From a virus, in the IMG/VR virus record IMGVR_UViG_3300018080_000527, positions 1 to 26,508 of that record: 26,508 nt of DNA, one strand, 5' to 3'. A program made the translations under genes and the position numbers. Every line of letters starts with the position of its first letter. Within the stretch, counting starts at the first letter, position 1. The notes below the pieces were generated by a model. That model saw only the letters and a list, made by a program, of their open reading frames with translations, searched no databases and was not told the origin of the DNA. Below are positions 5,131 through 25,917 of the stretch, in pieces.

Positions 5131-6483
5131 TTATTTCTCCTTAATAAATATGGTTGCACCATCATTACCCGATACTAATAAATTACAAGCATTTCCTGAG
5201 TTTTGATAGACTCTATGCTGCCAATAATCACCTTTTTTAGTTGCTGGTGATATGTTAGATTGCCATACTAACGCGGTGGCAGTACCAAGACTTTGCTGTT
5301 GATGAGCGCCATAAGTACCACCGTTTTTATACATTCTAGATAAAGCTATTTCATTAGTTGCAGCGCCTGTTACGTTTGTTACTCTAGCATGAGCATTTAT
5401 TGTCACATCTTTTGCATCTTGCGCAGTCCATGTCCAAGTAGAGCCTGTTGCAACTTCGCTTAAAGTATCATATTCTATAGTGTCATAATTCACTACTGTT
5501 ACAGAGTTATCATTTATTTGCTGTGTACTATTTGCCCTGCATAATACTCTTGTTTTAGGTCTTTGTTCTAAGTTAAACACATACTCCCCATCAGTTCCAG
5601 AAGATAACCCCATATATGCAGTTGCTACCATTCTATAATTATTAGAAGAAATAGTATCATAACAATAATTTCTAGCCTCATTAAATACATCTAATAAAGC
5701 AAGTTGGTTTCCTGACGGGCTATAATTCGCCCATGAAGTGTTAGTTGAATTAGTCCAGCCTGTAACACCATCAGCTTCATTTATATATGCTACAAACCAT
5801 TTATTATTCATTCCTGTGCTAGTGTCTTGTATTTTAATATCATCTTTAAACTCTATTGTTTTACCGTTCAAGTCAAATTGACCTTTACTTAAATAAACAC
5901 CTGTGGAGCTAAAATATAAGCCTTTAGAAGCATAAAAACCCCTGTCTTTTGTTTTAGAATAAAATACTGTAAGCTGGTCCACAGTTCCACCTGTAGAGTT
6001 AAAACGTGCTAAGACTTTATTTCCATCCTGATCATACCAGCCGCCTTTAGCCTCATCAAAGCTAAAAGAAGTAACAGATGTAGTGTGTTCTATTATTCCA
6101 TAACCTATTGAAGTACTACCAACGTTCTCAGCACCTTTACAAATAGTGTAATAAGTTCCTGCTGTACCTGTGGAGCTACATGAAGTGCTATCCCAGTCTA
6201 CAGTAAAAGCAGCTGGTAAAAATACAGCCTCATGATCATAGTTTACTACTGTACTATTAGCAGGGTAAACATTATTATCTGTACTATTTGAATCTACTGT
6301 TACATCAGTTTCTTTAACCACAAAAAACATAGAGTTTTGACCGACTACAGGCGGGTGAGTGCCATCTGTTGAGTTATGATCTACTTTTATATTTTCATTT
6401 ATGTATAATAACGGCTGGTGTGAGGCGTTATGAGATAACGACCAGTTATAGTCATATCCTTTGTATTTTCCTAAACTTACCAT
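5131..6483 (-). CDS. Tail fibre or receptor-binding protein, 450 aa
   Basis: A beta-rich protein with many Ser-Thr and Asn-Ser-Thr pairs, aromatic residues and few helices. The N-terminus (MVSLGKYKGYDYNWSLSHNA) has no signal peptide. The middle (DQDGNKVLARFNSTGGTV, KSKTKDRGFYASKG and similar) and the C-terminal part (WQHRVYQNSGNACNLLVSGNDG) look like repeated beta sandwiches. It stands between the beta-helix tailspike and the lysis block, where siphoviruses place receptor-binding fibres. No catalytic motif seen. Likely attached to the tail tip. Fine receptor specificity cannot be predicted. Confidence 0.6.
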   Translation of the reverse strand: MVSLGKYKGYDYNWSLSHNASHQPLLYINENIKVDHNSTDGTHPPVVGQNSMFFVVKETDVTVDSNSTDNNVYPANSTVVNYDHEAVFLPAAFTVDWDSTSCSSTGTAGTYYTICKGAENVGSTSIGYGIIEHTTSVTSFSFDEAKGGWYDQDGNKVLARFNSTGGTVDQLTVFYSKTKDRGFYASKGLYFSSTGVYLSKGQFDLNGKTIEFKDDIKIQDTSTGMNNKWFVAYINEADGVTGWTNSTNTSWANYSPSGNQLALLDVFNEARNYCYDTISSNNYRMVATAYMGLSSGTDGEYVFNLEQRPKTRVLCRANSTQQINDNSVTVVNYDTIEYDTLSEVATGSTWTWTAQDAKDVTINAHARVTNVTGAATNEIALSRMYKNGGTYGAHQQQSLGTATALVWQSNISPATKKGDYWQHRVYQNSGNACNLLVSGNDGATIFIKEK

Positions 6484-6492
6484 TATTTCTCC

Positions 6493-7890
6493 TTATTTGT
6501 TATTAGATAAAGTATTGTTATTGCCTTGATCGTCAATTTTCGGGCTTCCTACTCCTGCGTTAGTTGAGGTAATATTACCAAGAACCAGACAACTATCTGC
6601 ATTTGTATTTAAGAAAGCTTGTGAAGTGCTATCACTGTCATTGTTATCTATTATATTTGACATTATATTTATGTTTTGCCCTGAGTCTACAAATATACCA
6701 TAAGATGAATTATCTGTTATAGAATTTCCTGTTATAGTTGTTCTAAATACATTGCTTTGTATATATATTCCATTATCACTATTTGCATATATATCATTAC
6801 CTGTTATAGTTACTTTATCTGCTGATATTAAACCAATTCCATGATCATCATTTGAGAATATATTATTATTAGAAATAACAGTATTTTCATTTGCAAGATA
6901 TATTCCATTCAGTGTATTGTTATTTAATTCATTGCTTATAATTTTATTATACTGACCTGTTATATTTACACCATGATCACCGTTATCATATATATAATTT
7001 TTGTCTATGTTTGACCAATCAGATCCTAATTGTATTCCGTCCCCTGTATTATCATGAATCCAACATCGTTTTACTTCTGATCTATTTCCTGCTATGTTTA
7101 TTCCATCCCCTGCATTACTATTGCCGTCAACTTGTAAATCTTCTATTGAAATATTTATATCTGTTGAAACCGCTTCTATAAATATTGTACTATGGTTTTT
7201 TACTAAATGAGTTCCAAACCCTACACCCTTTAAAGTTACATTACTTTTCATTACTATTTCTGTAGTAGAATTGTATTGGCCCTCTAATAATTTAAGCTCC
7301 CCTCCCCCATTATCGGATAATTGAGTAATAAAAGCATTTATATGACTACTAGCATTTTCTGTACTCTTAATAATTAGATCAGCATTTATTTGGCCATAAT
7401 CAGCAGTTTGTGTAGTGGCTAAAACGATACTTGAAACACCTTTGACAAATGTGTTAAGTGTAGCAGCATTTAAAACCCCTCCTGCACTTTGAGCTTTAAA
7501 ACTTATAATGTCCTCTGCACTATTTGAGCCTACACCAACATTAAACTCAATAGCATTTCTTACATTTGTATTAGTTGGATTAAATTTACAAGTATAATTA
7601 CTTAGTGCAACATCCGCGTCAACTATAACAAGATCCACTCCTTGAGTCTCATTTCTAACTTCAAAATATGTGCTATTAGTTGATGTTCTGTATATCTCAT
7701 AATCTAAGTATACAATATAACTTGTACTAGCTCCACTATCTGAACTAGGAAAATTCGGGCTAGCTGGTATTGTTATATCATTAACCCCGATTGTATTTGT
7801 TGTGCTGCCACCTTTGCTCTCACTTCGTATATTATACAATCTAACAATATCATTTGTAAACGGGCTACGTGCGCTATCTCTAAAACTCAT
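6493..7890 (-). CDS. Right-handed beta-helix tailspike, 465 aa
   Basis: Residues about 205-440 are a run of degenerate repeats of roughly 22 residues such as NKIISNELNNNTLNGIYL and VTITGNDIYANSDNGIYI, the PbH1 pattern of pectate-lyase-like beta-helices. A loop NVTLKGVGFGTHL precedes the helix, as in polysaccharide-processing spikes. The N-terminal 200 residues are beta-rich and probably attach to the tail. Such spikes usually bind or cleave host capsule or O-antigen; catalytic residues cannot be placed by eye. It lies between the tail hub gene and the fibre gene, with 1 nt between it and the hub start region. Confidence 0.75.
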   Translation of the reverse strand: MSFRDSARSPFTNDIVRLYNIRSESKGGSTTNTIGVNDITIPASPNFPSSDSGASTSYIVYLDYEIYRTSTNSTYFEVRNETQGVDLVIVDADVALSNYTCKFNPTNTNVRNAIEFNVGVGSNSAEDIISFKAQSAGGVLNAATLNTFVKGVSSIVLATTQTADYGQINADLIIKSTENASSHINAFITQLSDNGGGELKLLEGQYNSTTEIVMKSNVTLKGVGFGTHLVKNHSTIFIEAVSTDINISIEDLQVDGNSNAGDGINIAGNRSEVKRCWIHDNTGDGIQLGSDWSNIDKNYIYDNGDHGVNITGQYNKIISNELNNNTLNGIYLANENTVISNNNIFSNDDHGIGLISADKVTITGNDIYANSDNGIYIQSNVFRTTITGNSITDNSSYGIFVDSGQNINIMSNIIDNNDSDSTSQAFLNTNADSCLVLGNITSTNAGVGSPKIDDQGNNNTLSNNK

Positions 7891-7891
7891 T

Positions 7892-9523
7892 TTATAACTC
7901 CTGTGCTGCTTTTAAAGCTTCTACTTCATTTTTTAATATATTAAAATCATCATCTGCAAACTCTTGAAACTCGCCTGCTTTTATATTTACATAACTACTT
8001 GAAAGATCAAAACTCATTTCTATAACATTTGCCTCATAAGATTGCCTGAATAGTGAATACAGTTGTATTTCATCTATTCTAACGTCCGCTGTAGTATCAT
8101 CACTTTCAAATCTTATAATAGAAAAAGTGTCAAAAGTAGTAGGTATATCTACCCATTGCCACTGATTTACGCCTTTAATATCAATAGAAAAATTAACAGT
8201 TGATCCTATTTCTATATCTGTTGAGCTTATAACAGAAGTACTGCCAACACCATATAAACCAATACCTAGAACACCCATACCAAGCGCACCAGGCTCACCC
8301 TGTGCATTTGTGCTATTGCCTAGATATACATTTACAAAAGATCCTATCTTATCACTTCTAATATAAAAGCCTAGTCTCTCAATGCCTTTCCAGCGTTTGT
8401 AGCCTGAAAAAGTATAATCTGACTGGCTACTGTCTAGTTGTAAAGAATAAGTGTCAACTTTTGCTATGGTTGAAAGATCACCAGCAGACCAGTTAGCTGT
8501 AGACTCACAATCTATAATAGTATGCCATAATAAATCTTCTTCTTTATATACTTTTATTCTCTCACCTATTTCTATAGGGTATCTGTCATAGTCTACGTTT
8601 TTAATATCTATTTTTGTTTTAAGTATTGCATCTTTAACAAGTTTCTGATAAGCAAAGTTTAAACCATCAGCTGTGCTTAATCCCTTGTAAACAGTTTCTT
8701 TGTTTTCTATAACACCCACTTGATTTTCTATTGCTAAAGGTGGATATTCTGTAGAGTTTGTTGAATAACCCACAGAGCCAAGCCTTACCTTTTGCCCTGC
8801 TGTTGTAGACTCTTGATAAACTTGTGATCTTGTAGCCTTGACAGCTTTATCATCTACAGTAACTTTTACACTTTCATAACCGCTATCATCATCAGCATAT
8901 AGAGTAGTAGTAATAGTTGTGCTAAAGGCCTTAACATAAAAAAAGTTATTATGATCAACTCCCAAATACCTGTTTTCAAGTTGATCTTGAATATCTTTTA
9001 ATATTTTGTTTACAGAATCATATTTGTACTCACCTGTAAAAGTAAAAGTAGAGCCTGTATTAACTAAGGTATTATTCCATAAAACACCAGTGTCTTGATC
9101 TTTTTCTAAAATAATATCTTCTAATATTTCCTCATAAGTAGCGCCTGTAGAATAGTTAAAGTTATATGTTTTATTTTGAAGTTCATTTAAAAAAGGACTG
9201 CAAGTAACTTTTCCGCCTGCTTTATCTGGTACACCATCAACTAAACCTTGATAAACTATTTTCCCATTTCTATATATGTTAATTTTATCTCTTGAAACAA
9301 TAGGAGCATCCATAATAGCAAAGTCAAATTGTGCTTTACCCATTCCAGAACGTGTTACGGTGTATTTTGCTTGTCTTAAAGGGCAATCAAAACCGTTTAT
9401 GTGATATGTTTTAACTCCCTCAATTTCTACTCTATAAGGAAAATAACTAATTGGATTAGGGCTATCCTCTGTTAAAGCAATAGGGCGTTCATCTAATGTA
9501 TTTTCACTAAAATTATATATCAA
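7892..9523 (-). CDS. Tail hub / baseplate protein (Tal or gp27-like), 543 aa
   Basis: Residues 30-130 (YRVEIEGVKTYHINGFDCPLRQAKYTVTR, then FDFAIMD, DKINIYRNGKIVYQGLVDGVP) have the organisation of tail hub domains of the gp27/Gp37-like group. The middle has a second beta domain (DRYPIEIGERIKVYKEEDLLWHTI) and residues 370-500 form a jelly-roll-like module. The C-terminal end is helical (EFQEFADDDFNILKNEVEALKAAQEL). Its ATG overlaps the Dit-like gene stop by ATGA. In siphoviruses this protein follows Dit and closes the tail tube at the tip. Confidence 0.7.
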   Translation of the reverse strand: MIYNFSENTLDERPIALTEDSPNPISYFPYRVEIEGVKTYHINGFDCPLRQAKYTVTRSGMGKAQFDFAIMDAPIVSRDKINIYRNGKIVYQGLVDGVPDKAGGKVTCSPFLNELQNKTYNFNYSTGATYEEILEDIILEKDQDTGVLWNNTLVNTGSTFTFTGEYKYDSVNKILKDIQDQLENRYLGVDHNNFFYVKAFSTTITTTLYADDDSGYESVKVTVDDKAVKATRSQVYQESTTAGQKVRLGSVGYSTNSTEYPPLAIENQVGVIENKETVYKGLSTADGLNFAYQKLVKDAILKTKIDIKNVDYDRYPIEIGERIKVYKEEDLLWHTIIDCESTANWSAGDLSTIAKVDTYSLQLDSSQSDYTFSGYKRWKGIERLGFYIRSDKIGSFVNVYLGNSTNAQGEPGALGMGVLGIGLYGVGSTSVISSTDIEIGSTVNFSIDIKGVNQWQWVDIPTTFDTFSIIRFESDDTTADVRIDEIQLYSLFRQSYEANVIEMSFDLSSSYVNIKAGEFQEFADDDFNILKNEVEALKAAQEL

Positions 9524-14738: not shown

Positions 14739-15051
14739 AATCATTTCCTAAATCTATTTGTAAATGGTTACTTCTAAGATCAGCATTTAAAGCTAATATC
14801 TCATAATAAGTTGATCCTCTTACTATTCTATCAGTATGCTGTCTTATATCCTCTGTAGCATCACAATACATTCTTAAGTTATACCTTATATCTTCTTCAC
14901 GTTCTATAACTGACTTATCACCTGATCTGGTTTGAATAGTGCATAATACATCTGCTACAGTAGACCATGTTTTGACCTGTTGACCGTAAGAATCGGCTGT
15001 AACTGTATAGCGTTCTATTACTACAGTTTCATTATAGTAATCACTTATCAT
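14722..15051 (-). CDS. Head-tail joining / head closure protein (SPP1 gp16-like), 109 aa
   Basis: Small beta-barrel type: VVIERYTVTADSYGQQVKTWSTVADVLCTIQ at the start, ending in YYEILALNADLRSNHLQIDL. The pattern (E-x-x-x-x-x-D-x-x-G-x-x-x-x-x-W, then A-x-I-x-x-x-x-G, then a final Y-x-I-x-x-V/L-x-x strand) is that of phage head closure proteins. Start at 15051 overlaps the upstream stop as ATGA. It lies between the connector and the gp10-like gene, as expected. Confidence 0.75.
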   Translation of the reverse strand: MISDYYNETVVIERYTVTADSYGQQVKTWSTVADVLCTIQTRSGDKSVIEREEDIRYNLRMYCDATEDIRQHTDRIVRGSTYYEILALNADLRSNHLQIDLGNDYASRS

Positions 15052-15647
15052 TTTTTACCTGCTATTCTATATTTGTTTAGCCCACTTATAACACTGCGCG
15101 GATAAGTATTAGATCCTGCTGATACTTCGCCTGATCCAGTGCCATAACTCACAGAATAATCACCTATTGACTCGCTTGTTATACCTTTATTACCTGCCTG
15201 ATTGCGCGCAAATAAATTATAACCTATCATATTAGAGCATATATAAGGAAGATCCTTAAAAAAATCCACGCGATATATATAAATATTACTATCTGTTGAC
15301 TCAGCATTTAATGACTCATTTACAGTTATTTTTGTACTATCAACATCAGCTATGGTATAATAATCATCATTCCATTTAGAGCCTCTTATTATAATAGTAT
15401 CACCTACAATAAACTGCTCTGTAAATACATCTCCAGTATCACTATTTGTAATCTCTGAGGCTGTTGATAACGTCCACAAACTATCATGAAAATATGCTGT
15501 TGACTTAATGAAATAGTTCTTACAATATAAATTAATATCTTCTAATACAATAGGTATTAAGGCATCTATCTGTGTATCGTATGTAGTGGTAGTTATTCCC
15601 AAAAACCCTTTTACTTCTGTTTTATTTGTTAATACACTGGTACTCAT
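15048..15647 (-). CDS. Head-tail connector (gp6/gp15-like adaptor), 199 aa
   Basis: The N-terminal helix bundle (LTNKTEVKGFLGITTTTYDTQIDALIPIVLEDINLYC) matches the gp6-like adaptor that packs under the portal. An inserted beta domain (about residues 62-128, GDTIIIRGSKWNDDYYTIAD) is larger than in the simplest adaptors. The C-terminal part (ICSNMIGYNLFARNQAGNKGITSESIGDYSVSYG) returns to the family pattern. The ATG overlaps the stop of the upstream 55-aa gene as TAATG. Confidence 0.75.
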   Translation of the reverse strand: MSTSVLTNKTEVKGFLGITTTTYDTQIDALIPIVLEDINLYCKNYFIKSTAYFHDSLWTLSTASEITNSDTGDVFTEQFIVGDTIIIRGSKWNDDYYTIADVDSTKITVNESLNAESTDSNIYIYRVDFFKDLPYICSNMIGYNLFARNQAGNKGITSESIGDYSVSYGTGSGEVSAGSNTYPRSVISGLNKYRIAGKK

Positions 15648-15814
15648 TATAATATCCCTTTTAATTTCTTTATTGCCTTCTTATCCTCTATTTTTATGCT
15701 TCCTTCCCTAGTTGATAAGACAATATATAAATTTCCTAAACTTTCAGAAATTTTAACTATATGATCTGGATTTATATATGTCTTTTCATCTATTTTAATA
15801 TATTTACTAAACAT
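15647..15814 (-). CDS. Small hypothetical protein, FlbD-like pattern, 55 aa
   Basis: ATG (15812-15814) with AGGAGA upstream; its TAA overlaps the start of the connector gene as TAATG. The product is basic and beta-rich (YIKIDEKTYINPDHIVKISE, then GNLYIVLSTREGSIKI), the layout of the small FlbD/YlzI fold (L-x-x-N-x-x-x-I-x-x-I), followed by a Lys-rich C-terminal helix (EDKKAIKKLKGIL). It lies at the 3' end of the accessory block, just before the connector. Function unknown; a small adaptor or translational coupling role is possible. Confidence 0.6.
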   Translation of the reverse strand: MFSKYIKIDEKTYINPDHIVKISESLGNLYIVLSTREGSIKIEDKKAIKKLKGIL

Positions 15815-15822
15815 TATATCTC

Positions 15823-17208
15823 CTAATTATCAACTAAAACTATATCAAAACCACCAGAAACACTTGCAGCAGTAATTGGACTATCTGTTATTGTAGCCCT
15901 TAACTCTATATCCGTTTTTTCTGTAAAGATCTCTGGTTCTTCATATTTGTGTTGTAAATAACTATTAGCGTTATCACTTATAGCTGATTTATGTTTAAGT
16001 TGAAATACTTCACCATCTTTACGCGCAAATAAATCTATAACATAGTTAGTATTTCTATTAGCTCCTGCACTAGAAGCGTACCAATCCCTCATATAACCAG
16101 TTTTTCCTGCTGGTATTGTGTAAACTGCCATCAGTGTCTGGTTATTTCCATTTGTTATCATTGCCCTTACATCACTTGACGCATCCGGCAAACCATTTGT
16201 AAAAGTAGCTGTTGAAGTAGTCGCATATACATTGCCAGCGATATCTGTACTTCCAATATTTTTCATTCTAAACACTCTTAAAAATGATGTTGACATTGTT
16301 ACAGGAGTTTGACCATTCAATGAGGTCGTTAATGTTGTTAATCCATAAGTACTATTTAAACCCTGTATTTCTACATTCATAGTGTCAGCGGCATCTGTAC
16401 TTGATATTTGAGTTATATTGGCACTCGTTGAATACTGGTAAACATATTGTGCTATTGTGGTATCATTAGCACCATCCCAAATAGTGACAGTTCCATCTCC
16501 ATCATCCCAATCTGGAGCAGTACCGAATTTATGAATAAAAGTTACTCCTGATACGTTTCCTTGTGCAATAGAAAGCCCGTTAGAATTATCTGAGATTGTA
16601 AGATTTCCATCTATGGTAGTAGCTACGTTTTGAAAAGCTCCCGTTGAATCCTGACCTGTTAATACTGCTTTTACTAAGCTTGCATCATCTTCAGATACAA
16701 TAGAATCTTGTATTCTATGTGATGAATCTTTAATATAAGATTTTCTTAATATTGTTTGTATATCTATATCTGCTGTGCCATTAGTGCTATTGGTATAAAC
16801 TACTCTAAAATATCTATTAGCTGGGGTAAATGTATAAATCTTCCCACCATTTTTAGAATAAGTAAATACATCATCCTGTGTTTCTGTAACACCATCTACA
16901 GACCATTGAACGTCCAACCCATCAGCTGCGGAGTCTTGATCTGATTTTATGGATACTGCTACAGTTCCATAATCAAGCGTATCCTCCCAAGCACCAGTAA
17001 AAACAGCTCCTGCAGCCAAATTACTCATATATGAATTAGCTGTACTTTCATGTCCTTTATTAGAAACAATTAATTCGCTGTTACCTGTTAAGACATTCTC
17101 GTTAAATTGAAAACTATCTGTTGAGGGTATAGTTATCGTGTTAAATGCTGTGCTTGCTGTTGAATAAGCTTTTAATAAAGCATCTCTTACTGCTCCACTT
17201 TCTGCCAT
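15823..17208 (-). CDS. Virion-associated beta-rich protein, head fibre/decoration candidate, 461 aa
   Basis: Almost entirely beta, with many Ser-Thr pairs, no Cys, no signal peptide and no catalytic motif. Residues 1-35 form a helix plus strand that could be an attachment part. The middle (FRVVYTNSTNGTADIDIQ, FRVFRMKNIGSTDIAGNVYA) and the C-terminal domain (MAVYTIPAGKTGYMRDWYAS, ending SGGFDIVLVDN) look like successive beta sandwiches. I recall similar C-terminal domains in virion proteins of marine phages, but cannot verify it. Placed between capsid and connector genes, it is more likely on the head or neck than on the tail tip. Confidence 0.55.
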   Translation of the reverse strand: MAESGAVRDALLKAYSTASTAFNTITIPSTDSFQFNENVLTGNSELIVSNKGHESTANSYMSNLAAGAVFTGAWEDTLDYGTVAVSIKSDQDSAADGLDVQWSVDGVTETQDDVFTYSKNGGKIYTFTPANRYFRVVYTNSTNGTADIDIQTILRKSYIKDSSHRIQDSIVSEDDASLVKAVLTGQDSTGAFQNVATTIDGNLTISDNSNGLSIAQGNVSGVTFIHKFGTAPDWDDGDGTVTIWDGANDTTIAQYVYQYSTSANITQISSTDAADTMNVEIQGLNSTYGLTTLTTSLNGQTPVTMSTSFLRVFRMKNIGSTDIAGNVYATTSTATFTNGLPDASSDVRAMITNGNNQTLMAVYTIPAGKTGYMRDWYASSAGANRNTNYVIDLFARKDGEVFQLKHKSAISDNANSYLQHKYEEPEIFTEKTDIELRATITDSPITAASVSGGFDIVLVDN

Positions 17209-17211
17209 AAT

Positions 17212-17505
17212 TTATCCTTTTACCACTACTGTTGAAATTGTTTTTTTAGTCACTGGGTTAGGGCTAGTTTCAAAATCATAATTAGAGCCTTCCAACATTT
17301 CTTCATCTTTACCAAGATTGTCTGCTTTATTCAAATCCTCTGTTAAAACTTCAATTATTAATTGGCCTGTACCATCCTCATACCTTTCTGTTGTACTAGA
17401 GCCTATTTTCATTCCTTGCGCTTCTAATTTTGCCTTATATTCTCTCAATAATTCAGCACCTTTTGTCGGATCAATATTTTCTTTTACCAGTATTTTCTTT
17501 TCCAT
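17212..17505 (-). CDS. Hypothetical protein, 97 aa
   Basis: Starts with MEKKILVKENIDPTKGAELL and has an N-terminal helix (residues 15-32), a beta hairpin (GTGQLIIEVLTEDL), an acidic middle segment (NLGKDEEMLEGSNYDFETS) and a C-terminal strand (KKTISTVVVKG). The gene fits tightly between two virion-type genes with SD sites. Family not recognised. It may be a minor structural or chaperone component of the accessory block. Confidence 0.6.
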   Translation of the reverse strand: MEKKILVKENIDPTKGAELLREYKAKLEAQGMKIGSSTTERYEDGTGQLIIEVLTEDLNKADNLGKDEEMLEGSNYDFETSPNPVTKKTISTVVVKG

Positions 17506-17506
17506 A

Positions 17507-18217
17507 TTACACCTCGTTATAACGTGCTAGCCAGTCCATTTCTGGGTTAGCAAGTACTTGCCCATCTAACATAAAAAACATTTGTAAATCCCCGATCCAC
17601 GGCTCAAAAGTTCCAGTCGCATTTCCTATGGCAACATTATTTATAGTGTCGGTGTTTGCTAATAATCCACTTGCCGTTCCTAAGTTGTCTCCATTTGCCC
17701 TTAACTTCATAATATCTGCACCAACGTTCCATGTTGCTGAGAACCAAAACCAATTTGTGTTTGAGTAAGCTCCATCGATATTTTTGAATGTACTATCTGG
17801 CGCACTGTTTTGCCTTTGTATCCTTAATACATTACTTGATCTTTTTAGTATTCTCAGCTGTAAATCTCCATCTGAAAAAGCCCAAAAACAGTGATGGTTT
17901 AATCCATCTCCCCACGTGCTACTTGATATTTTAGCTCTCATTGAAATAGCGCCTTCATCTGGGTCAAATCTGCCTTCTAAACTTGCGTCTGCATCTATAT
18001 TATAATCATTTTGCGTACCATCCTGATTTACATAATAATATCCTAAATTACGTGTTGCTGTTTTTGACCTTCCTGTTGCATTACCCCATGTTTGATTATC
18101 TTGATTGCCTCGCCTTTTGTCAATAGCAGTGCCACCATTAGAAAAGTCGTCCATTGGCAATAAAATTGCCTGGTCTTGAACTTCCATTCGCCTTAATATT
18201 TGAATTATATTACTCAT
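17507..18217 (-). CDS. LamG/concanavalin-like jelly-roll protein, 236 aa
   Basis: Residues 85-225 follow the LamG pattern in order: EGAISMRAKISSSTWGDG, then LQLRILKRSSNVLRIQRQ, then NTNWFWFSATWNVGADIMKLRANG, then NNVAIGNATGTFEPWIGDLQMFFMLDG, ending EMDWLARYN. This is the usual W-x-x-x-A-x-x-W, strand with NG, IGN, G-x-I/L-x-x-x series. Such domains bind sugars or serve as decoration on phage heads and fibres. The N-terminal helix (MSNIIQILRRMEVQDQAILL) may anchor it. In the middle of the accessory block, it suggests that the virion head or neck carries a carbohydrate-binding layer (inference). Confidence 0.7.
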   Translation of the reverse strand: MSNIIQILRRMEVQDQAILLPMDDFSNGGTAIDKRRGNQDNQTWGNATGRSKTATRNLGYYYVNQDGTQNDYNIDADASLEGRFDPDEGAISMRAKISSSTWGDGLNHHCFWAFSDGDLQLRILKRSSNVLRIQRQNSAPDSTFKNIDGAYSNTNWFWFSATWNVGADIMKLRANGDNLGTASGLLANTDTINNVAIGNATGTFEPWIGDLQMFFMLDGQVLANPEMDWLARYNEV

Positions 18218-18225
18218 ATTATACC

Positions 18226-18753
18226 CTATTGAATGTCATAATCTAATGATATCTGGTTATAGTTAGTTCCATCAAAAATATAAGTTACAACATCTGACTC
18301 ACCAGCATCACTATTTGCTGTATTTAACCCAAAACCACCACCAGTTCTAATTGTATTTGCTGTAGAATAAGTAACCGTCCTGTTTCCTGTGCCATCTTGT
18401 ATATATTCTATATAACATAATCCGATCTTACTTACTGGATCTGTAAAAGTTATAGTACAATCTGCTGTTAGTGTTATTTTCTGAAAGTTTCCAGAGTTCC
18501 AAGATATTGTTGCTGCTGCGCTACTATTACCGTTGTCAACTATCGCATCATTCCCATTAAATGCGTTAGCTGTAAAACTCTCAGCTACTATATCTCCAGA
18601 AGTAGAGCAAGTTGCTGTTGTCTCTAATACATCTCTTGAATCTGTAGAGGCTGAAAGTATTGATCTTTGAGTTGCAAATAGTGCTGTGCTTTGTACTCCA
18701 TAGGTTACAGCGTCGTCTATTGTCTGGCCTGCGTGCGTGCTATTGTATGCCAT
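18226..18753 (-). CDS. Virion structural protein, beta-rich, 175 aa
   Basis: N-terminus MAYNSTHAGQTIDDAVTYG resembles the G-x-x-I-D-x-A-V motif at the start of many phage fibre-like proteins. The core SAAATISWNSGNFQKITLT followed by ADCTITFTDPV matches a repeat seen in phage virion fibres (W-x-x-G-x-x-Q-x-I-T-L-T-x-x-x-T-L-T-F-x-x-P). The last strand VVTYIFDGTNYNQISLDYD is typical of this unit. AAGGAG lies before its ATG. It is likely an exposed virion protein; the site on the particle is not known. Confidence 0.65.
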   Translation of the reverse strand: MAYNSTHAGQTIDDAVTYGVQSTALFATQRSILSASTDSRDVLETTATCSTSGDIVAESFTANAFNGNDAIVDNGNSSAAATISWNSGNFQKITLTADCTITFTDPVSKIGLCYIEYIQDGTGNRTVTYSTANTIRTGGGFGLNTANSDAGESDVVTYIFDGTNYNQISLDYDIQ

Positions 18754-18764
18754 ATTTTATCTCC

Positions 18765-18917
18765 TTATGTAGATGTTAAGAAATAAGCGTTTGTAGATGT
18801 TATAAAGTAAGCGTCTATTCCTGTAGATGTTATAAAAACATTACTTGGTATTGGAGCCATACCATTAACAAAATCTATTTGATCTGTATATTCTCTACCT
18901 AAACCTAAACCTAACAT
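18765..18917 (-). CDS. Small protein with tandem YF(I/L)TST repeats, 50 aa
   Basis: ATG (18915-18917) follows TAAGGA. The N-terminus MLGLGLGREYTDQIDFVNG is followed by NVFITSTG, AYFITSTN and AYFLTST at the very end: three copies of a hydrophobic-ITST unit. The DNA shows this as three copies of a TGTAGATGTTA-type direct repeat on the plus strand. The stop codon is part of TAAGGAG, which serves as RBS of the next gene. Family not recognised. The hydrophobic beta repeat could be an assembly or binding tail. Confidence 0.5.
   Translation of the reverse strand: MLGLGLGREYTDQIDFVNGMAPIPSNVFITSTGIDAYFITSTNAYFLTST
18770..18836. repeat. Three direct repeats TGTAGATGTTA-type within a small gene
   Basis: Plus-strand copies start near 18769, 18791 and 18821 (tgtagatgttaag, tgtagatgttataaag, tgtagatgttataaaa), with uneven spacing. 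They lie in frame within the 50-aa gene and encode its repeated ITST unit, so a protein-level repeat that arose by slippage or duplication is the likely explanation. Confidence 0.5.
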
Positions 18918-18925
18918 ATTATTCC

Positions 18926-19198
18926 TTATATAGTATATGCTATAGCATACACTGTGCTTAATTGAACACTTGATATCTCACCGTAAATAGTTTGACCTGC
19001 TGCATAAAATGGTGTTGTCAATAACGTTGAATCTGTCACGCCAGCTATTGTAATACTGTTAATAGTAGCAGAGCTTAAAAAGTTTAATGCTCCAAATTTA
19101 CCAGTGCTAGCAGCGCCTGTAGTAGATGATACCACCACACCACCTTTTTGACCAAACGATATTTCACTTAAATCTAATTCCCATCTTGATTCTGCCAT
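18926..19198 (-). CDS. Small decoration-like virion protein, 90 aa
   Basis: The sequence GKFGALNFLSSATINSITIAG and later YAAGQTIYGEISSVQLSTVYAIAY resembles small proteins found beside phage coat genes, with the pattern of a W/F-G-A-l-x-x-L strand and an A-G-x-x-I-Y-G-x-x-x-x-x-x-L strand pair. It is beta-rich, Cys-free and has no signal peptide. The flanking genes are also small and beta-rich. Likely a decoration or fibre base protein; this is inference from pattern and position. Confidence 0.55.
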   Translation of the reverse strand: MAESRWELDLSEISFGQKGGVVVSSTTGAASTGKFGALNFLSSATINSITIAGVTDSTLLTTPFYAAGQTIYGEISSVQLSTVYAIAYTI

Positions 19199-19207
19199 GT
19201 TTTATCC

Positions 19208-19420
19208 TTATGTAGAAGTAATAGATGTAGAAGTATCTGCACTAATACCAGTTACTATATTATTATCAAAATACAAAGTTGCTTTTGTGAAATTGATAGT
19301 GGTACTAGCAGCGTCAAAGCTATCTATTGATTTTACTATATCTAATGATGTGCTATTCCAAGTTGATCCCAAAAGATCTATTGAATAAGCACTAAGTTCA
19401 TTTTTAGTCATTTTGCTCAT
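19208..19420 (-). CDS. Hypothetical small protein, 70 aa
   Basis: Begins MSKMTKNELSAYSIDLLGST with an N-terminal helix, continues with beta strands (INFTKATLYFDNNIVTGI) and ends in TSTSITST. The last codons and stop (ACATAAGG) are nearly identical to the end of the 50-aa gene at 18765-18917. The good SD (GGAGAAATAAAATG on the minus strand) and the tight spacing support it as a gene. Family not recognised. Confidence 0.55.
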   Translation of the reverse strand: MSKMTKNELSAYSIDLLGSTWNSTSLDIVKSIDSFDAASTTINFTKATLYFDNNIVTGISADTSTSITST

Positions 19421-19431
19421 TTTATTTCTCC

Positions 19432-20574
19432 TTAGGCATTTAAGGCTTTGAGATGGTAAGTGTGTGCATCTCTTGCGCCTTGAAACGCGTTTAATCTAGC
19501 ATCAAGGTTTTTAATATCATTATTAAATGCCTCTAGCTTTTTACTTATTGTTTGTTTTGTTAATATATCATATTGCTCTATAGGCATACTCTCAGCTTTT
19601 TTTAGCTCTTTAGTTAGTGCCTCATATTGTTGTTTAAGATTGTTTATTTTTTGGTCTACGGTCATTCTCATTTCGTTGTTTAACTTTCCAGCCTCATTTA
19701 CCAGAATACCTCTTTTAAACTTCATGTCCTCTATGCCGCGATTAAAAAAGTCAACCTTACCTTGTATCTTTTTTCTTTTCACCTCTATATCTGCAATACC
19801 GTATTCATGCTCATTCCGTAAAACTTCGCTTTCCTCTGGTAAGTGAATAACACCGCGTTTTCCTTTTGCTAGTAAGTACCCAGCTAGAACACCGAGCCAC
19901 CATTCATTACAAGGTCTCTCATATTGCCATTCCGTATCAGTCTCTAAATGTATGCCGTACATGTGAAGCTCATCATAAGCATCATTTTCTATTACCATAT
20001 CCAGCGCCCACACTATCATATAAGCTATGCTATTAGTCACATAAAACTTATCATTAACAGGTAGTAAATCCTTATACTTATTCTTTAAGTATTCTCTAGG
20101 AAATACTGTGTTATTGTTTAAGTTGTCATCTTTAACCCATGTAACAGCCTCAATATCCTTTTGTGGCATCCATGCAGGGCTATTTTCTTTATTAGCATGA
20201 TGTATAATAGGCTTTCTACTATAAGGGCTAACCTCTTGGTTATAGATATAAGGTAAATGTATTTCAAAGACCTTATCAAGTCTCTTAACACTTTGTAGCA
20301 TAAGACTGTGAGCTACTCCCCACATCTCTGCGTTTGGATCATTATAGGGGGCTTTACCTGCGCTACCTGCTGTACCCACTATACAAAGCTTTCTTTTATT
20401 GTCTTCTATTTTCTCTTGTATAACAGGCATATCTTTACCTGTTAACTCTTTAATATATTTTGCTGCACCATCTACTTGACTTTTACTAGGTTTTTTCTCT
20501 ATAGATGTTACACTTGCTTTTTCAGCCTTTTCTTGATCTTTGATCATTTTAATTACGTTTGTTTTTTTAGCCAT
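19432..20574 (-). CDS. Rossmann-like (DUF115-type) protein with coiled-coil C-terminus, 380 aa
   Basis: Three parts are visible. Residues 1-60 are charged and likely unstructured or helical. Residues 61-260 form an alpha/beta domain: KLCIVGTAGSAGKAPYNDP (strand, Gly-rich loop and acidic patch), WGVAHS at 85-90, FYVTNSIAYMIVWALDMV at 177-194, LHMYGIHLETDTEWQYERP at 203-221 and GVIHLPEESEVL at 241-252. Residues 260-375 are a Lys/Glu/Leu-rich coiled coil. The domain looks like a widespread phage family (GTAPSS...WG...S-x-A-x-M-x-x-x-A...Y-G-x-x...Y-x-x-x-P-x-x-E-x-x-G), related in appearance to DUF115 or nucleotide-sugar enzymes. The reaction is unknown. The gene follows the coat/decoration genes after a terminator hairpin. 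Confidence 0.6.
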   Translation of the reverse strand: MAKKTNVIKMIKDQEKAEKASVTSIEKKPSKSQVDGAAKYIKELTGKDMPVIQEKIEDNKRKLCIVGTAGSAGKAPYNDPNAEMWGVAHSLMLQSVKRLDKVFEIHLPYIYNQEVSPYSRKPIIHHANKENSPAWMPQKDIEAVTWVKDDNLNNNTVFPREYLKNKYKDLLPVNDKFYVTNSIAYMIVWALDMVIENDAYDELHMYGIHLETDTEWQYERPCNEWWLGVLAGYLLAKGKRGVIHLPEESEVLRNEHEYGIADIEVKRKKIQGKVDFFNRGIEDMKFKRGILVNEAGKLNNEMRMTVDQKINNLKQQYEALTKELKKAESMPIEQYDILTKQTISKKLEAFNNDIKNLDARLNAFQGARDAHTYHLKALNA

Positions 20575-20623: not shown

Positions 20624-21007
20624 TTAGTTTTGTCTGGTTGATGATTGCTCTACAAAACCAGCTGCAATAGCTGTTGAGAAAGCAATAGTAACTACATTAG
20701 ATGTAGATTGAAACCAGTTTGATTCTAAGTTTGCAATAAAACCATAACCTGAACTATTTAGGGCTGTAGATATAATAAGATCACCTCTACCTATAGAGGC
20801 ATAGCCCTCAGCAGTAGAAGCTGAGATAGTTGCCGTAACATTATCTACATCAGTAGGATTATGCCAGAATAAAACTACGTCCTCTAAACTACCACAAGTA
20901 ATAGTTAAAGAAGTAGTCGCGGTAGAAAATCCTATATGTCCTCCGCTTGTCGAATTATAAATTGCATTTATGCCGATTTTTTCGGCTGTTGTTGTTAAAG
21001 CTGCCAT
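20624..21007 (-). CDS. Capsid decoration or head-stabilising protein, 127 aa
   Basis: Directly downstream of the coat gene with its own SD, and immediately followed by the terminator hairpin, as expected for an abundant protein. The sequence is beta-rich (IYNSTSGGHIGFSTATTSLTI, then VVLFWHNPTDVDNVTATIS and WFQSTSNVVTIAFSTA) without Cys or catalytic motifs. The family is not certain; lambda gpD- and P22-type accessory proteins occupy this place. Decoration is inferred from position, size and composition. Confidence 0.6.
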   Translation of the reverse strand: MAALTTTAEKIGINAIYNSTSGGHIGFSTATTSLTITCGSLEDVVLFWHNPTDVDNVTATISASTAEGYASIGRGDLIISTALNSSGYGFIANLESNWFQSTSNVVTIAFSTAIAAGFVEQSSTRQN

Positions 21008-21020
21008 GTTTTACCTCCTA

Positions 21021-21890
21021 TTAACTATTTGTTACTTTTGCGTATAATACACCAGTTCTGTCTGGTATAATTCTAGCGCCATATACGTGTAAACCACCCA
21101 TTGAAACACCGAAGCCTTTCTGAGCATCGTATAAGTTACCACGTTCCATTTTAACAATTTGCTCTGCTAGTGTAATAGACTCGTTAGAAACACCACATAT
21201 AATATTGTATTGATCCGTATCTGTAGATGGTTGATTAACATTGTTACTCATAACTAGATTCCAGCCATAAGCTCTTACAGTTCTACCCTCTTGCCATGTT
21301 ATATCATTATTTGATTGCTCTAATATACCAGCGTCAATCAATTCAAACATTAAAGCAGGTGGGATAACCATATATCTACCATCTCTCTGAACGTTGTTTT
21401 GATCGAATGTTTTACCCATTAACAATAATTCTGTTCTAGCGTTTGAACTTCCTATAGTAACATAAGAAGTTGCACTATTTGAAGTTGAACTTAAACCAGC
21501 CTGTGTGTATAAACCAGCTATAAACTGATCCTGAGTATCTGCTAATTGGTAAGCCATGTTAGTAGCTAACTGTGGTAATACATTAACATTACTTTGTACC
21601 ATATCAATATCATCAATACCAACATTAACATATTTCTCTTGATCAACTACAAGTGTCATGCTTGCTACATTTGCTGTTTCTAAAGTAAGACCTGTACCAA
21701 AATCATTTCTAGTATAGTCGTTTACTGTAGGGTGTCCAATTTGAGGAATTCTTACTTGATCCCCAGATTGTCTTATTTCTCCCTCATAGTTTCGGTTTGC
21801 TAACATACCGAAAACATGAGCTTTCTTTTTATCTTCTAATACTCTTTGACTCCATATTTCAGGAATAAATTCCGTCATAACATCTGCCAT
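21021..21890 (-). CDS. Major capsid protein (P22 coat/gp5-like), 289 aa
   Basis: N-terminus MTEFIPEIWSQRVLEDKKK followed by HVFGMLANRNYEGEI, GDQVRIPQIGHPTVNDYTRND and VDQEKYVNVGIDDIDMVQSN. This series (F-I-P-E-x-W...N-R-x-Y-E-G-E-I...G-D-x-V-x-I-P...D-x-x-K-Y-x-x-x-x-x-D-D-x-x) is the signature of the P22 coat-like group of HK97-fold capsid proteins. It ends with YGARIIPDRTGVLYAKVTNS, the A-domain end typical of the family. It is preceded by the scaffold gene and followed by the decoration gene. Confidence 0.9.
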   Translation of the reverse strand: MADVMTEFIPEIWSQRVLEDKKKAHVFGMLANRNYEGEIRQSGDQVRIPQIGHPTVNDYTRNDFGTGLTLETANVASMTLVVDQEKYVNVGIDDIDMVQSNVNVLPQLATNMAYQLADTQDQFIAGLYTQAGLSSTSNSATSYVTIGSSNARTELLLMGKTFDQNNVQRDGRYMVIPPALMFELIDAGILEQSNNDITWQEGRTVRAYGWNLVMSNNVNQPSTDTDQYNIICGVSNESITLAEQIVKMERGNLYDAQKGFGVSMGGLHVYGARIIPDRTGVLYAKVTNS

Positions 21891-23727: not shown

Positions 23728-25126
23728 CTTGACCTCCATCCATGTCAAACATTTTCATATTTTTCTCTTTCTGAGCCTTGAGTCTTTCAACAGCTAGATC
23801 AACATTATCTACAAGATCCTCAGGAAAAGTTTTAAGTATATCTTCATCAGCTAATAACCCTGCATTTTTAAGTTTAGTTGCATTTTCTATAATCTCAGTT
23901 AGATTTACAGGAGTATTTCTCTTGAAGCGTATATTAACTTTTTCAAACTGAACATCTCTTATTTTTAAATAAGTGTTTATAAGATCTATTCTGTGTTGTA
24001 AACCTTTTGAGAATAGCGTTTCTTTATCACTGCAAAAGTTTTCAAAATCAAACAAAGCCCACATCATACTTACACCCGAAGCATTTGAGAAGTTCTTACT
24101 TCTAAAATCTGGTATGTGTGAGTGGTACTCTATATCTTCTCTAAGTGTGCCTTTAACGGTTTCAAAAAAATCACTAGGTATATCTTTAGTTAGAAACTCA
24201 GCACCACCTTGACCATCTAAAAACTCTAAAACTCTACGTGTTTTAATTTTCTCCAACTCTCTTTTTTTCATATTATCATCATCAGGATTACTAAAAACAT
24301 AGTCTTTAAGTATAAGGTAAGCACTTGCAAACCTGTTTAATTCGTTTGTTGAATCGCTTGCTAATATATCATAAGCATCAACTAAGGGTTTGACTGGCTC
24401 ATAGTCTGCATGAAATTCTTGGTTGTTTTTATATAACACAAAAGGAATTTTTCCGAAAGGGTTAGGGTATTCATCAACCTTTGAAGTTATCTTAAAGTTA
24501 TTAGAACTATTTTCTTCTAAGTTGTACACCTCTACTCTATCCAAGTAGTAAACTTCTAACCTGTACTTTTTAACGTTGTTTTTACTTTGTTTATCTTCAT
24601 CAATAAGGTAATATCTAATAGCGCCTGAAAGTTTAGGCTCTATTTCCATATTATTAAGAAATATGCACTCTTTCGGGTTAACGTTTGTAAACCTTAGCTC
24701 AGCTTCCTCATCTATATACATAAGTTCTACACCAAGACCGTATTTACTTTGACTCTCGCCAAGTTCTGAGGTTTTAAGTGTTTCATCGTTCCTGTCAAAT
24801 ATCTCTTGTAACACTTCCATGTATTGATCATTATCGCTGTCATAAGTAATAAGTCCAGCTTTGAACATATACCCTTTCACTATTTGAGTCATAGTCCGCG
24901 CGTATGGTACTGCTACCCTTGAATCTGGGTTATTAGAATCTACATTTCTTTTACTTGCTATTGCTACATTAGCACCAATATAATATTGCTCATTTTCAGA
25001 ATATTTATCCCAGAACTCCCTGTTTTCTTCAATGAGTTGAACAAGTTCTTTTTCACTTAAACTTGTAAACTCCTCTACACGTGGGTATTCATATATTTTA
25101 GTTGTTATTTTTACATCACCTTCCAT
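23669..25126 (-). CDS. Portal protein (SPP1 gp6-like), 485 aa
   Basis: Residues 20-100 (LVQLIEENREFWDKYSENEQYYIG, then RVAVPYARTMTQIVKGYMF) match the SPP1 gp6-type portal group, and the family spans its length: QSKYGLGVELMYIDEEAELR, NPFGKIPFVLYKNNQEFHAD with the P-F-G-x-I-P motif, DAYDILASDSTNELNRFA and the helix at the C-terminal third (NASGVSMMWALFDFENFCSD). The C-terminus is acidic and low-complexity. It forms the dodecameric DNA entry ring. The start overlaps the methyltransferase stop as TAATG. Confidence 0.9.
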   Translation of the reverse strand: MEGDVKITTKIYEYPRVEEFTSLSEKELVQLIEENREFWDKYSENEQYYIGANVAIASKRNVDSNNPDSRVAVPYARTMTQIVKGYMFKAGLITYDSDNDQYMEVLQEIFDRNDETLKTSELGESQSKYGLGVELMYIDEEAELRFTNVNPKECIFLNNMEIEPKLSGAIRYYLIDEDKQSKNNVKKYRLEVYYLDRVEVYNLEENSSNNFKITSKVDEYPNPFGKIPFVLYKNNQEFHADYEPVKPLVDAYDILASDSTNELNRFASAYLILKDYVFSNPDDDNMKKRELEKIKTRRVLEFLDGQGGAEFLTKDIPSDFFETVKGTLREDIEYHSHIPDFRSKNFSNASGVSMMWALFDFENFCSDKETLFSKGLQHRIDLINTYLKIRDVQFEKVNIRFKRNTPVNLTEIIENATKLKNAGLLADEDILKTFPEDLVDNVDLAVERLKAQKEKNMKMFDMDGGQDESNGFNPGDEEIPQQNGD

Positions 25127-25917
25127 TAAGATACACCCTTAAATAAATGATCGTTATTTTCTTCAAGTCTTTTATTTATTATATCAATATATTTTTGCTC
25201 TTTTTCAATCAATATATATTTTCTGTTTAGGTTTTGACAGGCTATTCCTGTAGTTCCGCTTCCAGCAAACGGATCTAGCACAGTATCGTATTCATTGCTC
25301 CATGAAATTATGTGATCTGATGCAAGTTTTTCTGGAAATATAGCAGGGTGGTTATTTTCAAACCCTCTCTTTAGATTATAAATTAACCAATGATTAAACC
25401 TCTCGCTATATTCTCTTACCTTGACTGGTTTTTTTCTAATTAGCTTTCCAGCAGCATTTCTTTCCGTTCTTTTTGAAGGCTTCCTATTGAATGATTTATT
25501 TTTCCTATCTTTTATAGGATTGAATGTTTTTGGTTTACCTTTTGACAATATAAACATATATTCAAATCCTTGATGATATCTGTCTTTACTAGGAAAAGCC
25601 ATTTGCTCTTTTATATATATCATTGTATCATGCAGATTAAACCCACACTTTTTCGCCCACAAAGCTTGCTTAAAACTTGTTCCTGTTTCACTTCCGTTTA
25701 TAGTAGCATCTCCAACAACCCAAACAACAACACCGCCATTTTTAGTAATTTTATATAGTTTATTTATAACGCTTTTCCATATATTTTCATCCCATTCTAA
25801 ACTATTGTTATATGTTCTTAAATTATCATAAGGCGGGCTAGTTATTGTCAAGTCAATTTTTACACCTTGATCTATTAACTTATCCATCTCTTCTAAGCAA
25901 TCCCCATGTATTACCAT
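25126..25917 (-). CDS. DNA methyltransferase (N4-cytosine/N6-adenine, beta class), 263 aa
   Basis: Motif IV TSPPYD (residues 26-31) comes before motif I DPFAGSGTTG (215-224), the order of beta-class amino-methyltransferases. SPPY favours N4-cytosine but N6-adenine is possible. The S-adenosylmethionine-binding loop and the catalytic motif are intact. The region 130-172 is Lys/Arg-rich, likely DNA-contacting (target recognition). No restriction gene is adjacent, so a solitary protective methylase is likely. It sits between terminase and portal, with TAATG overlaps at both ends. Inserted here, it is expressed with packaging genes, i.e. late. Confidence 0.9.
   Translation of the reverse strand: MVIHGDCLEEMDKLIDQGVKIDLTITSPPYDNLRTYNNSLEWDENIWKSVINKLYKITKNGGVVVWVVGDATINGSETGTSFKQALWAKKCGFNLHDTMIYIKEQMAFPSKDRYHQGFEYMFILSKGKPKTFNPIKDRKNKSFNRKPSKRTERNAAGKLIRKKPVKVREYSERFNHWLIYNLKRGFENNHPAIFPEKLASDHIISWSNEYDTVLDPFAGSGTTGIACQNLNRKYILIEKEQKYIDIINKRLEENNDHLFKGVS

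Follow-up and report, generated by a model that had tools for sequence, protein, structure and literature searches.

What is encoded between the coat gene and the connector genes of the virus from which the 26.5 kb fragment analysed here was taken (IMG/VR record IMGVR_UViG_3300018080_000527, positions 1 to 26,508, hereafter the window)? The late genes of the window all lie on the minus strand, in the order terminase large subunit (TerL, cut by the window end), a DNA methylase-like gene, portal, MuF-type head protein, scaffold and coat protein, then a probable decoration protein of 127 amino acids (aa), a 380-aa Rossmann-type protein and eight more open reading frames (ORFs), and finally head-tail adaptor, head closure, Neck1, tail terminator-like, tail tube and tail genes (Table 1). 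The gap between the genes of the major capsid protein (MCP) and of the adaptor spans 5,374 bp, practically all of it ORFs, and is among the largest in the set of relatives with both genes recognised, in which the spacing ranges from 208 to 5,721 bp; an earlier reading of this DNA (the original prediction) was right in placing the connector genes unusually far from the coat gene. It described 15647-20574 as an inserted block. Instead, the coat, decoration and Rossmann genes form a conserved unit, and what follows them is a slot of variable content. The more surprising part of the locus, which the original prediction missed, is that the Rossmann gene is conserved on its own account and has associations that point towards the attachment of sugar to the virion.

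The exterior proteins of this virus are rich in the dipeptide Ser-Thr (ST). With the proteins of the window sorted by us as exterior or interior from gene identity, ST occurs 101 times in the 18 exterior virion proteins, where shuffled sequences give 43.6 (z 9.8; the second dipeptide reaches z 3.6), and 5 times, with 12.5 expected, in the 22 that are interior or non-structural; the tape measure, the scaffold and the Rossmann protein have none. The products of the block and the decoration protein account together for 41 ST where 17.3 are expected, a number reached in none of 2000 shuffles. The dipeptide is spread in the window over 16 codon pairs, which rules out a DNA motif as its source, and low-complexity TSTS runs were ruled out likewise, TS not being enriched. 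ST often follows Gly, Asn or Ala and precedes Ala or Gly, as in exposed turns, and its sites are conserved more than other dipeptides of Ser and Thr, both in the comparison with the nearest relative, locus L004 (80% vs 65%), and in that with L012 (75% vs 36%).

The ST excess follows the Rossmann gene across loci. In a survey of about 100 loci, made with mechanical ORFs on contigs that are fragments, the median ratio of observed to expected ST (o/e) is 1.73 with the gene and 0.88 without it (p 1.6e-9), and the reverse dipeptide TS is unchanged; the named phages lambda, TP901-1, AP45 and phiSASD1 lie between 0.64 and 1.27. The difference persists when relatives are merged into clusters, at 60% identity (51 vs 27, p 2e-7) as well as at 45% (18 vs 5, p 0.012). 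It is also seen among homologous proteins: the MCP carries 0.96 ST per 100 aa in phages with the Rossmann gene and 0.44 in those without (p 3e-6), and a higher ST content in the company of the gene is likewise seen in the adaptor, head-closure and 461-aa families, while the interior families (tape measure, MuF, scaffold, portal and the Rossmann protein itself) show no enrichment. A second coat family served as a test, since it contains ST-rich contigs without a Rossmann gene near the coat gene. The gene was located elsewhere in five of six long contigs (those of L180 and its near-duplicate L181, L182, L195 and L197); it was not found in ST-rich L179, of which the whole 29.9 kb contig was searched, or in shorter fragments, nor was it found in the unenriched members L203, L205, L206 and L210 or in 23 control contigs.

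The Rossmann gene is a conserved and widespread gene in its own right, not an insertion. Its family comprises 58 phage clusters at 70% identity, nearly all uncultured, and occurs in one of 50,697 phage records, that of the sole cultured carrier, Microcystis phage Mvi-Yong1342-1 (PP496355.1:34781-35584), where it adjoins the terminase small subunit gene and is labelled 'type 11 methyltransferase'. It falls outside the families of Pfam, NCBIfam and PHROGs, and two scans of genome contigs returned no cellular or prophage copies at the sensitivity used. The usual place of the gene is between coat or decoration genes and connectors, with upstream neighbours belonging to many different coat-protein PHROGs, that is, to unrelated coat families, and downstream neighbours that are mostly head-tail adaptors, head-closure proteins, Neck1 proteins or tail spikes. 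Two ORFs or pieces match the family in some phages (L115:2201-3034 and 8010-8690; G004; G016).

The family is associated with the NeuB, NeuC and NeuA genes of sialic-acid-type sugar synthesis. The synthetase for CMP (cytidine monophosphate) sugars (PF02348) is present in 23 of 29 contigs carrying the Rossmann gene and in 1 of 33 controls (p 1.6e-10), and NeuB (PF03102) in 23 of the 29 and in 1 of 21 controls. In several phages the Rossmann gene lies away from the head genes, within an operon; in contigs G002, G014 and G015 this consists of NeuB, the Rossmann gene, a NeuC-type epimerase (PF02350) and the CMP-sugar synthetase (NeuA), the genes being overlapping or adjacent, with one extra ORF ahead of the synthetase in G002. 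L004 has, directly upstream of its terminase genes, a run formed by a UDP (uridine diphosphate)-sugar dehydratase (PF02719), NeuB, a radical-SAM-type gene, an aldo/keto reductase, a GT2 glycosyltransferase, a CMP-sugar synthetase and an aminotransferase. The corresponding genes of the window are not visible because it stops inside TerL. In another phage a protein of the 461-aa family is encoded beside TerL (L014:9851-11227, contig G044); this phage has NeuB and CMP-sugar synthetase, no Rossmann gene and no ST excess, and another transferase may stand in for the Rossmann protein there.

Profiles were built from the whole-family alignment (A4, 48 sequences) and from sub-families (A7, A9). Their best matches in the PDB are sialyltransferases of family GT42, with E values of 0.003-0.007 for A9 and A7 and of 0.29 for the whole family. 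With the A9 profile, nine GT42 chains head the list (best E 0.0031, a weak match) and the next, unrelated, protein follows at 2.8, and hhalign assigns a probability of 67% to GT42 against 0.1% to a DNA methyltransferase. The GT42 profile PF06002 matches the Rossmann ORF in 8 of the 29 contigs, always below its cut-off (best E 5.3e-6), and a W-x-L-N motif conserved in the family aligns with a conserved Asn of Cst-II, the clade of the window having W-G-V-A-H instead. MptE-like proteins (PF01973), another candidate family, give weak matches through the same short motif in 5 of the 29. Among viral models, a Foldseek search with the Rossmann model of the window matched two proteins strongly, of which one is an uncharacterised phage protein and the other has no name in the tables. 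GT42 sialyltransferases thus appear to be the closest solved relatives of the family, which provides a lead and not a proof.

The best explanation of these observations, and probably the correct one, is that the phage has its own transferase, which decorates Ser-Thr sites of virion proteins with a sugar resembling sialic acid. Enzymes of NeuB/NeuA type, encoded elsewhere on the phage genome, would make a nonulosonic acid, a nine-carbon sugar of sialic-acid type, in its CMP-activated form, and the Rossmann protein would be the glycosyltransferase that moves it from the CMP-sugar to the Ser or Thr of ST dipeptides lying in exposed loops of virion proteins, the block products included. Particles of such a phage would bear a coat of acidic sugars, with which they could conceal receptors or antigens, stay dispersed or imitate the surface of the host. 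We infer enzyme activity, sugar, modified residue and biological role alike from sequence. A number of observations weigh against such sugar transfer. The Microcystis phage PP496355 has the Rossmann gene but neither ST excess nor NeuB/NeuA, and L124 and L133 have Rossmann and sugar genes without ST excess, although their acceptor signature may differ. Within the contigs that carry the Rossmann gene, the relation between sugar genes and ST excess is only a trend (p 0.07), and two coat families supply most of the controls, to which the four named phages are added. The curated cut-off of PF06002 is passed by none of the 29 contigs, and much of the GT42 match is one short motif. The window's own Rossmann protein is divergent and lacks the common W-x-L-N asparagine, and its AlphaFold model (predicted local distance difference test, pLDDT, 66) gave no useful fold match in the PDB, Foldseek returning coiled-coil noise.

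Four rival explanations were weighed. It is doubtful that the slot proteins are tail-tip or tail-fibre components that only map among head genes: phrog_8198 and phrog_19976 are annotated as tail fibre or tail, and podovirus-type relatives often have a tail spike gene after the Rossmann gene, but the window has tail-spike-like and fibre-like genes of its own, separate from the block and after the tape measure (5131-9523), and synteny locates the slot between the adaptor and the head genes. The position between head and connector genes, the fibre-type modules in the slots of relatives and a Rossmann gene usually among head genes, with a long coiled-coil C-terminus in its product, would suit a mere accessory cassette for head fibres, decorations or neck whiskers, with the Rossmann protein structural or active in assembly and the ST excess a folding feature of beta-rich proteins. 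This is unlikely, since no excess is seen in the beta-rich proteins of phages without the Rossmann gene or of lambda, TP901-1 and AP45 (o/e 0.64-1.0; phiSASD1 1.27), homologous coat proteins differ in ST according to Rossmann status, and the gene sits in NeuB/NeuC/NeuA operons off the head genes in several phages.

The normal task of NeuB/NeuC/NeuA and GT42 enzymes lies in the making of surface polysaccharides. As many contigs carry sugar genes, these could alter the lipopolysaccharide or capsule of the host, for example excluding other phages, and the Rossmann protein could act on a host glycan and not on the virion; a confinement of the ST excess to exterior virion proteins and the frequent location of the Rossmann gene among head genes are left unexplained in that case, which makes it quite improbable. 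Least credible is the placement of another modification on Ser-Thr by the Rossmann protein, be it phosphorylation, acetylation, methylation or a different sugar. All that is directly seen is indeed a Ser-Thr signature and a Rossmann fold, and one member bears the methyltransferase label in its database record; against this stands the strong linkage to CMP-nonulosonate genes, and the label was rejected because the Methyltransf_11 (PF08241) matches in the 29 contigs never fall on the Rossmann ORFs located in them.

Whether sugar transfer by the Rossmann protein extends further, so that a large unrecognised group of uncultured tailed phages sugar-coats the whole virion exterior at Ser-Thr with its own transferase and a sialic-acid-like sugar, the ST excess being a genome-readable signature that tells exterior from interior virion proteins, is an evenly balanced question. 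If it is so, many environmental phages would carry sugar-coated particles by means of a phage-encoded nonulosonic-acid pathway and a simple two-residue acceptor signature, the current picture of the virion surface, of receptor binding and of how phage particles are recognised would change, a gene family absent from Pfam and PHROGs would receive a name, and virion glycosylation would become predictable from sequence and directly testable.

The proposed system resembles several known ones in part. The GT42 sialyltransferases (CST-I, PF06002; Cst-II, 1ro7, 1ro8, 2drj) give the top and nearly the only sequence matches of the Rossmann family among solved structures, and the family shares with them the company of NeuB and CMP-sugar synthetase genes; unlike them, the family falls below the cut-off, has a short shared region, is phage-encoded among head genes and would use protein Ser-Thr, not an oligosaccharide, as acceptor. 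Capsid glycosylation by phage enzymes has been suggested for mycobacteriophages such as Maravista (PMC11256854). There too a phage glycosyltransferase is proposed to modify the phage's own capsid, but the present case would involve another enzyme type, the nonulosonic-acid pathway, an exterior-wide dipeptide signature and many unrelated coat families. Glycan-binding capsid decorations and head fibres are known (Hoc, pb10, gp12, gp8.5; PMC7602432) and are, like the slot products, accessory virion surface proteins often encoded near the coat gene; they have no sequence match to the present proteins, which are encoded by several genes in a single slot. The capsid turrets of HFTV1, proposed to touch host glycans, are capsid-borne modules as well, but homology was not detected and their genes gp30 and gp31 lie apart from the coat gene gp19 (PMC12494034). 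In the lactococcal 936 group, the optional genes of the neck passage structure or whiskers also occupy a late-gene hotspot, but adjoin the major tail gene (PMC4759559) and do not lie between coat and adaptor. The fibre I protein gp80 of podophage GP4 (PF23140) has a relative in the L031 slot and is absent from the window. In the literature searched, from which subscription papers were missing, no paper dealt with GT42 in phages, with NeuB in connection with phage virions or with a rule for Ser-Thr, nor did any describe a nonulosonic-acid pathway linked to a Ser-Thr signature across the virion exterior.

The comparison of gene order that accompanied the original prediction as a check gave a double result: coat, decoration and Rossmann genes are constant and the slot (15647-19420) varies, so that 'inserted' describes at most the latter. 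The 127-aa gene directly follows the MCP gene in the window and in L003, L004, L005, L011, L012 and L101, and in these relatives both are kept together with the Rossmann gene, whose product has 45-77% identity to that of the window in relatives measured by BLAST. As a small gene adjoining the MCP gene and conserved with it, 20624-21007 probably encodes a capsid decoration protein, and its ST content exceeds the 2.4 expected (p 0.002). Past the Rossmann gene the genes differ among relatives. The slot of L004 has genes identical in kind and order to those of the window, minus the 55-aa ORF, and those of L087, L105, L106 and L145 are empty. A beta-propeller with other genes is found in L005, genes of phrog_5335 type in L101 and L011, and two small ORFs in L012; a propeller from the slots of related phages has seven blades (PF10282, 1e-25). 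Farther relatives carry in the slot a protein related to the Gp80 fibre (PF23140, 1.8e-35, in L031), a glycine-rich domain (PF21722, 2.5e-14) or tail-collar-type fibre pieces; isolated phage AP45 has a 446-aa 'minor capsid protein' in the corresponding slot. With such varied contents, the slot behaves as a hotspot of probable surface modules. The block is not a recent insertion, because G+C is uniform across it, the gene order is shared with L004 and the slot genes are under purifying selection (ratio of non-synonymous to synonymous substitution rates, dN/dS, 0.03-0.30). Short Lys-rich ORFs occur at the slot end beside the adaptor in L005 (14828-15063) and L012 (11550-11880).

Table 1. Coordinates of the coat-to-adaptor region in the window
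Feature	Coordinates	Strand	Length (aa)	ST	Remarks
Major capsid protein, block boundary	21021..21890	-	289		phrog_267 E 2.1e-46; PF25209 9e-11
Probable capsid decoration protein	20624..21007	-	127	7	identity suggested by position
Rossmann-type protein, coiled-coil C-terminus	19432..20574	-	380		family alignment; proposed virion nonulosonyl (sialic-acid-like) transferase
Small beta-rich protein	19208..19420	-	70	5	orthologues in L004, L012, others; ST p 0.04
Small beta-rich protein	18926..19198	-	90	4	L004 orthologue 64%; dN/dS 0.17
Small protein, internal repeat ending ...TST	18765..18917	-	50	3	L004 orthologue 57%; ST p 0.007
Fibre-like protein	18226..18753	-	175	5	C-terminal part: phrog_19976 tail assembly 8e-5; dN/dS 0.10
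Protein called LamG in the original prediction	17507..18217	-	236		sole relative found: L004, 83%; dN/dS 0.05
97-aa protein	17212..17505	-	97	2	L004 orthologue 89%; dN/dS 0.03
Beta-rich protein, C-terminal phrog_8198 module	15823..17208	-	461	12	phrog_8198 9.4e-37
55-aa ORF	15647..15814	-	55		lone slot gene missing from L004
Head-tail adaptor, far slot boundary	15048..15647	-	199	5	phrog_1236 1e-18; phrog_1161 7e-11

In the window and L004 the slot is plausibly filled with eight and seven genes, respectively, for small, mostly beta-rich, exposed virion modules. The exposed surface or fibre modules first proposed remain plausible in as much as the block shares the exterior ST excess and the slots of relatives hold fibre, propeller and glycine-rich domains, but single assignments fared unevenly. 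Nine genes had been announced and ten listed; nine ORFs lie within 15647-20574 (55, 461, 97, 236, 175, 50, 90, 70 and 380 aa), and of four small beta-rich proteins three are inside (70, 90 and 50 aa), the fourth being the conserved 127-aa protein just outside, by the MCP gene. LamG was not recovered for the 236-aa protein, with no match in Pfam, NCBIfam or PHROGs (E 0.1-1) and no lectin among PDB sequences, nor did family searches of Pfam, NCBIfam and PHROGs, which gave no match for the 55-aa ORF, support its description as FlbD-like. The fibre-like nature of the 175-aa protein finds weak support in its phrog_19976 match, and the same C-terminal part is 43% identical to a 'putative tail fiber' of MW202476. 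The C-terminal half of the 461-aa protein covers positions 35-262 of the 262 of the phrog_8198 profile and belongs to that family, relatives of which are annotated as tail fibre in some cyanophages; its AlphaFold model (pLDDT 49.5) was too poor for a fold search. Neck-appendage families of PHROGs, Pfam and NCBIfam were matched by no block protein.

Two differences from L004 lie on the other side of the coat gene. The DNA methyltransferase-like gene between TerL and portal (25126-25917) is absent from that place in L004, and the MuF-type head protein, of 307 aa in the window, has there an orthologue of 573 aa (L004:7290-9011), whose extra C-terminal stretch contains the zincin-like motif HEFGH.

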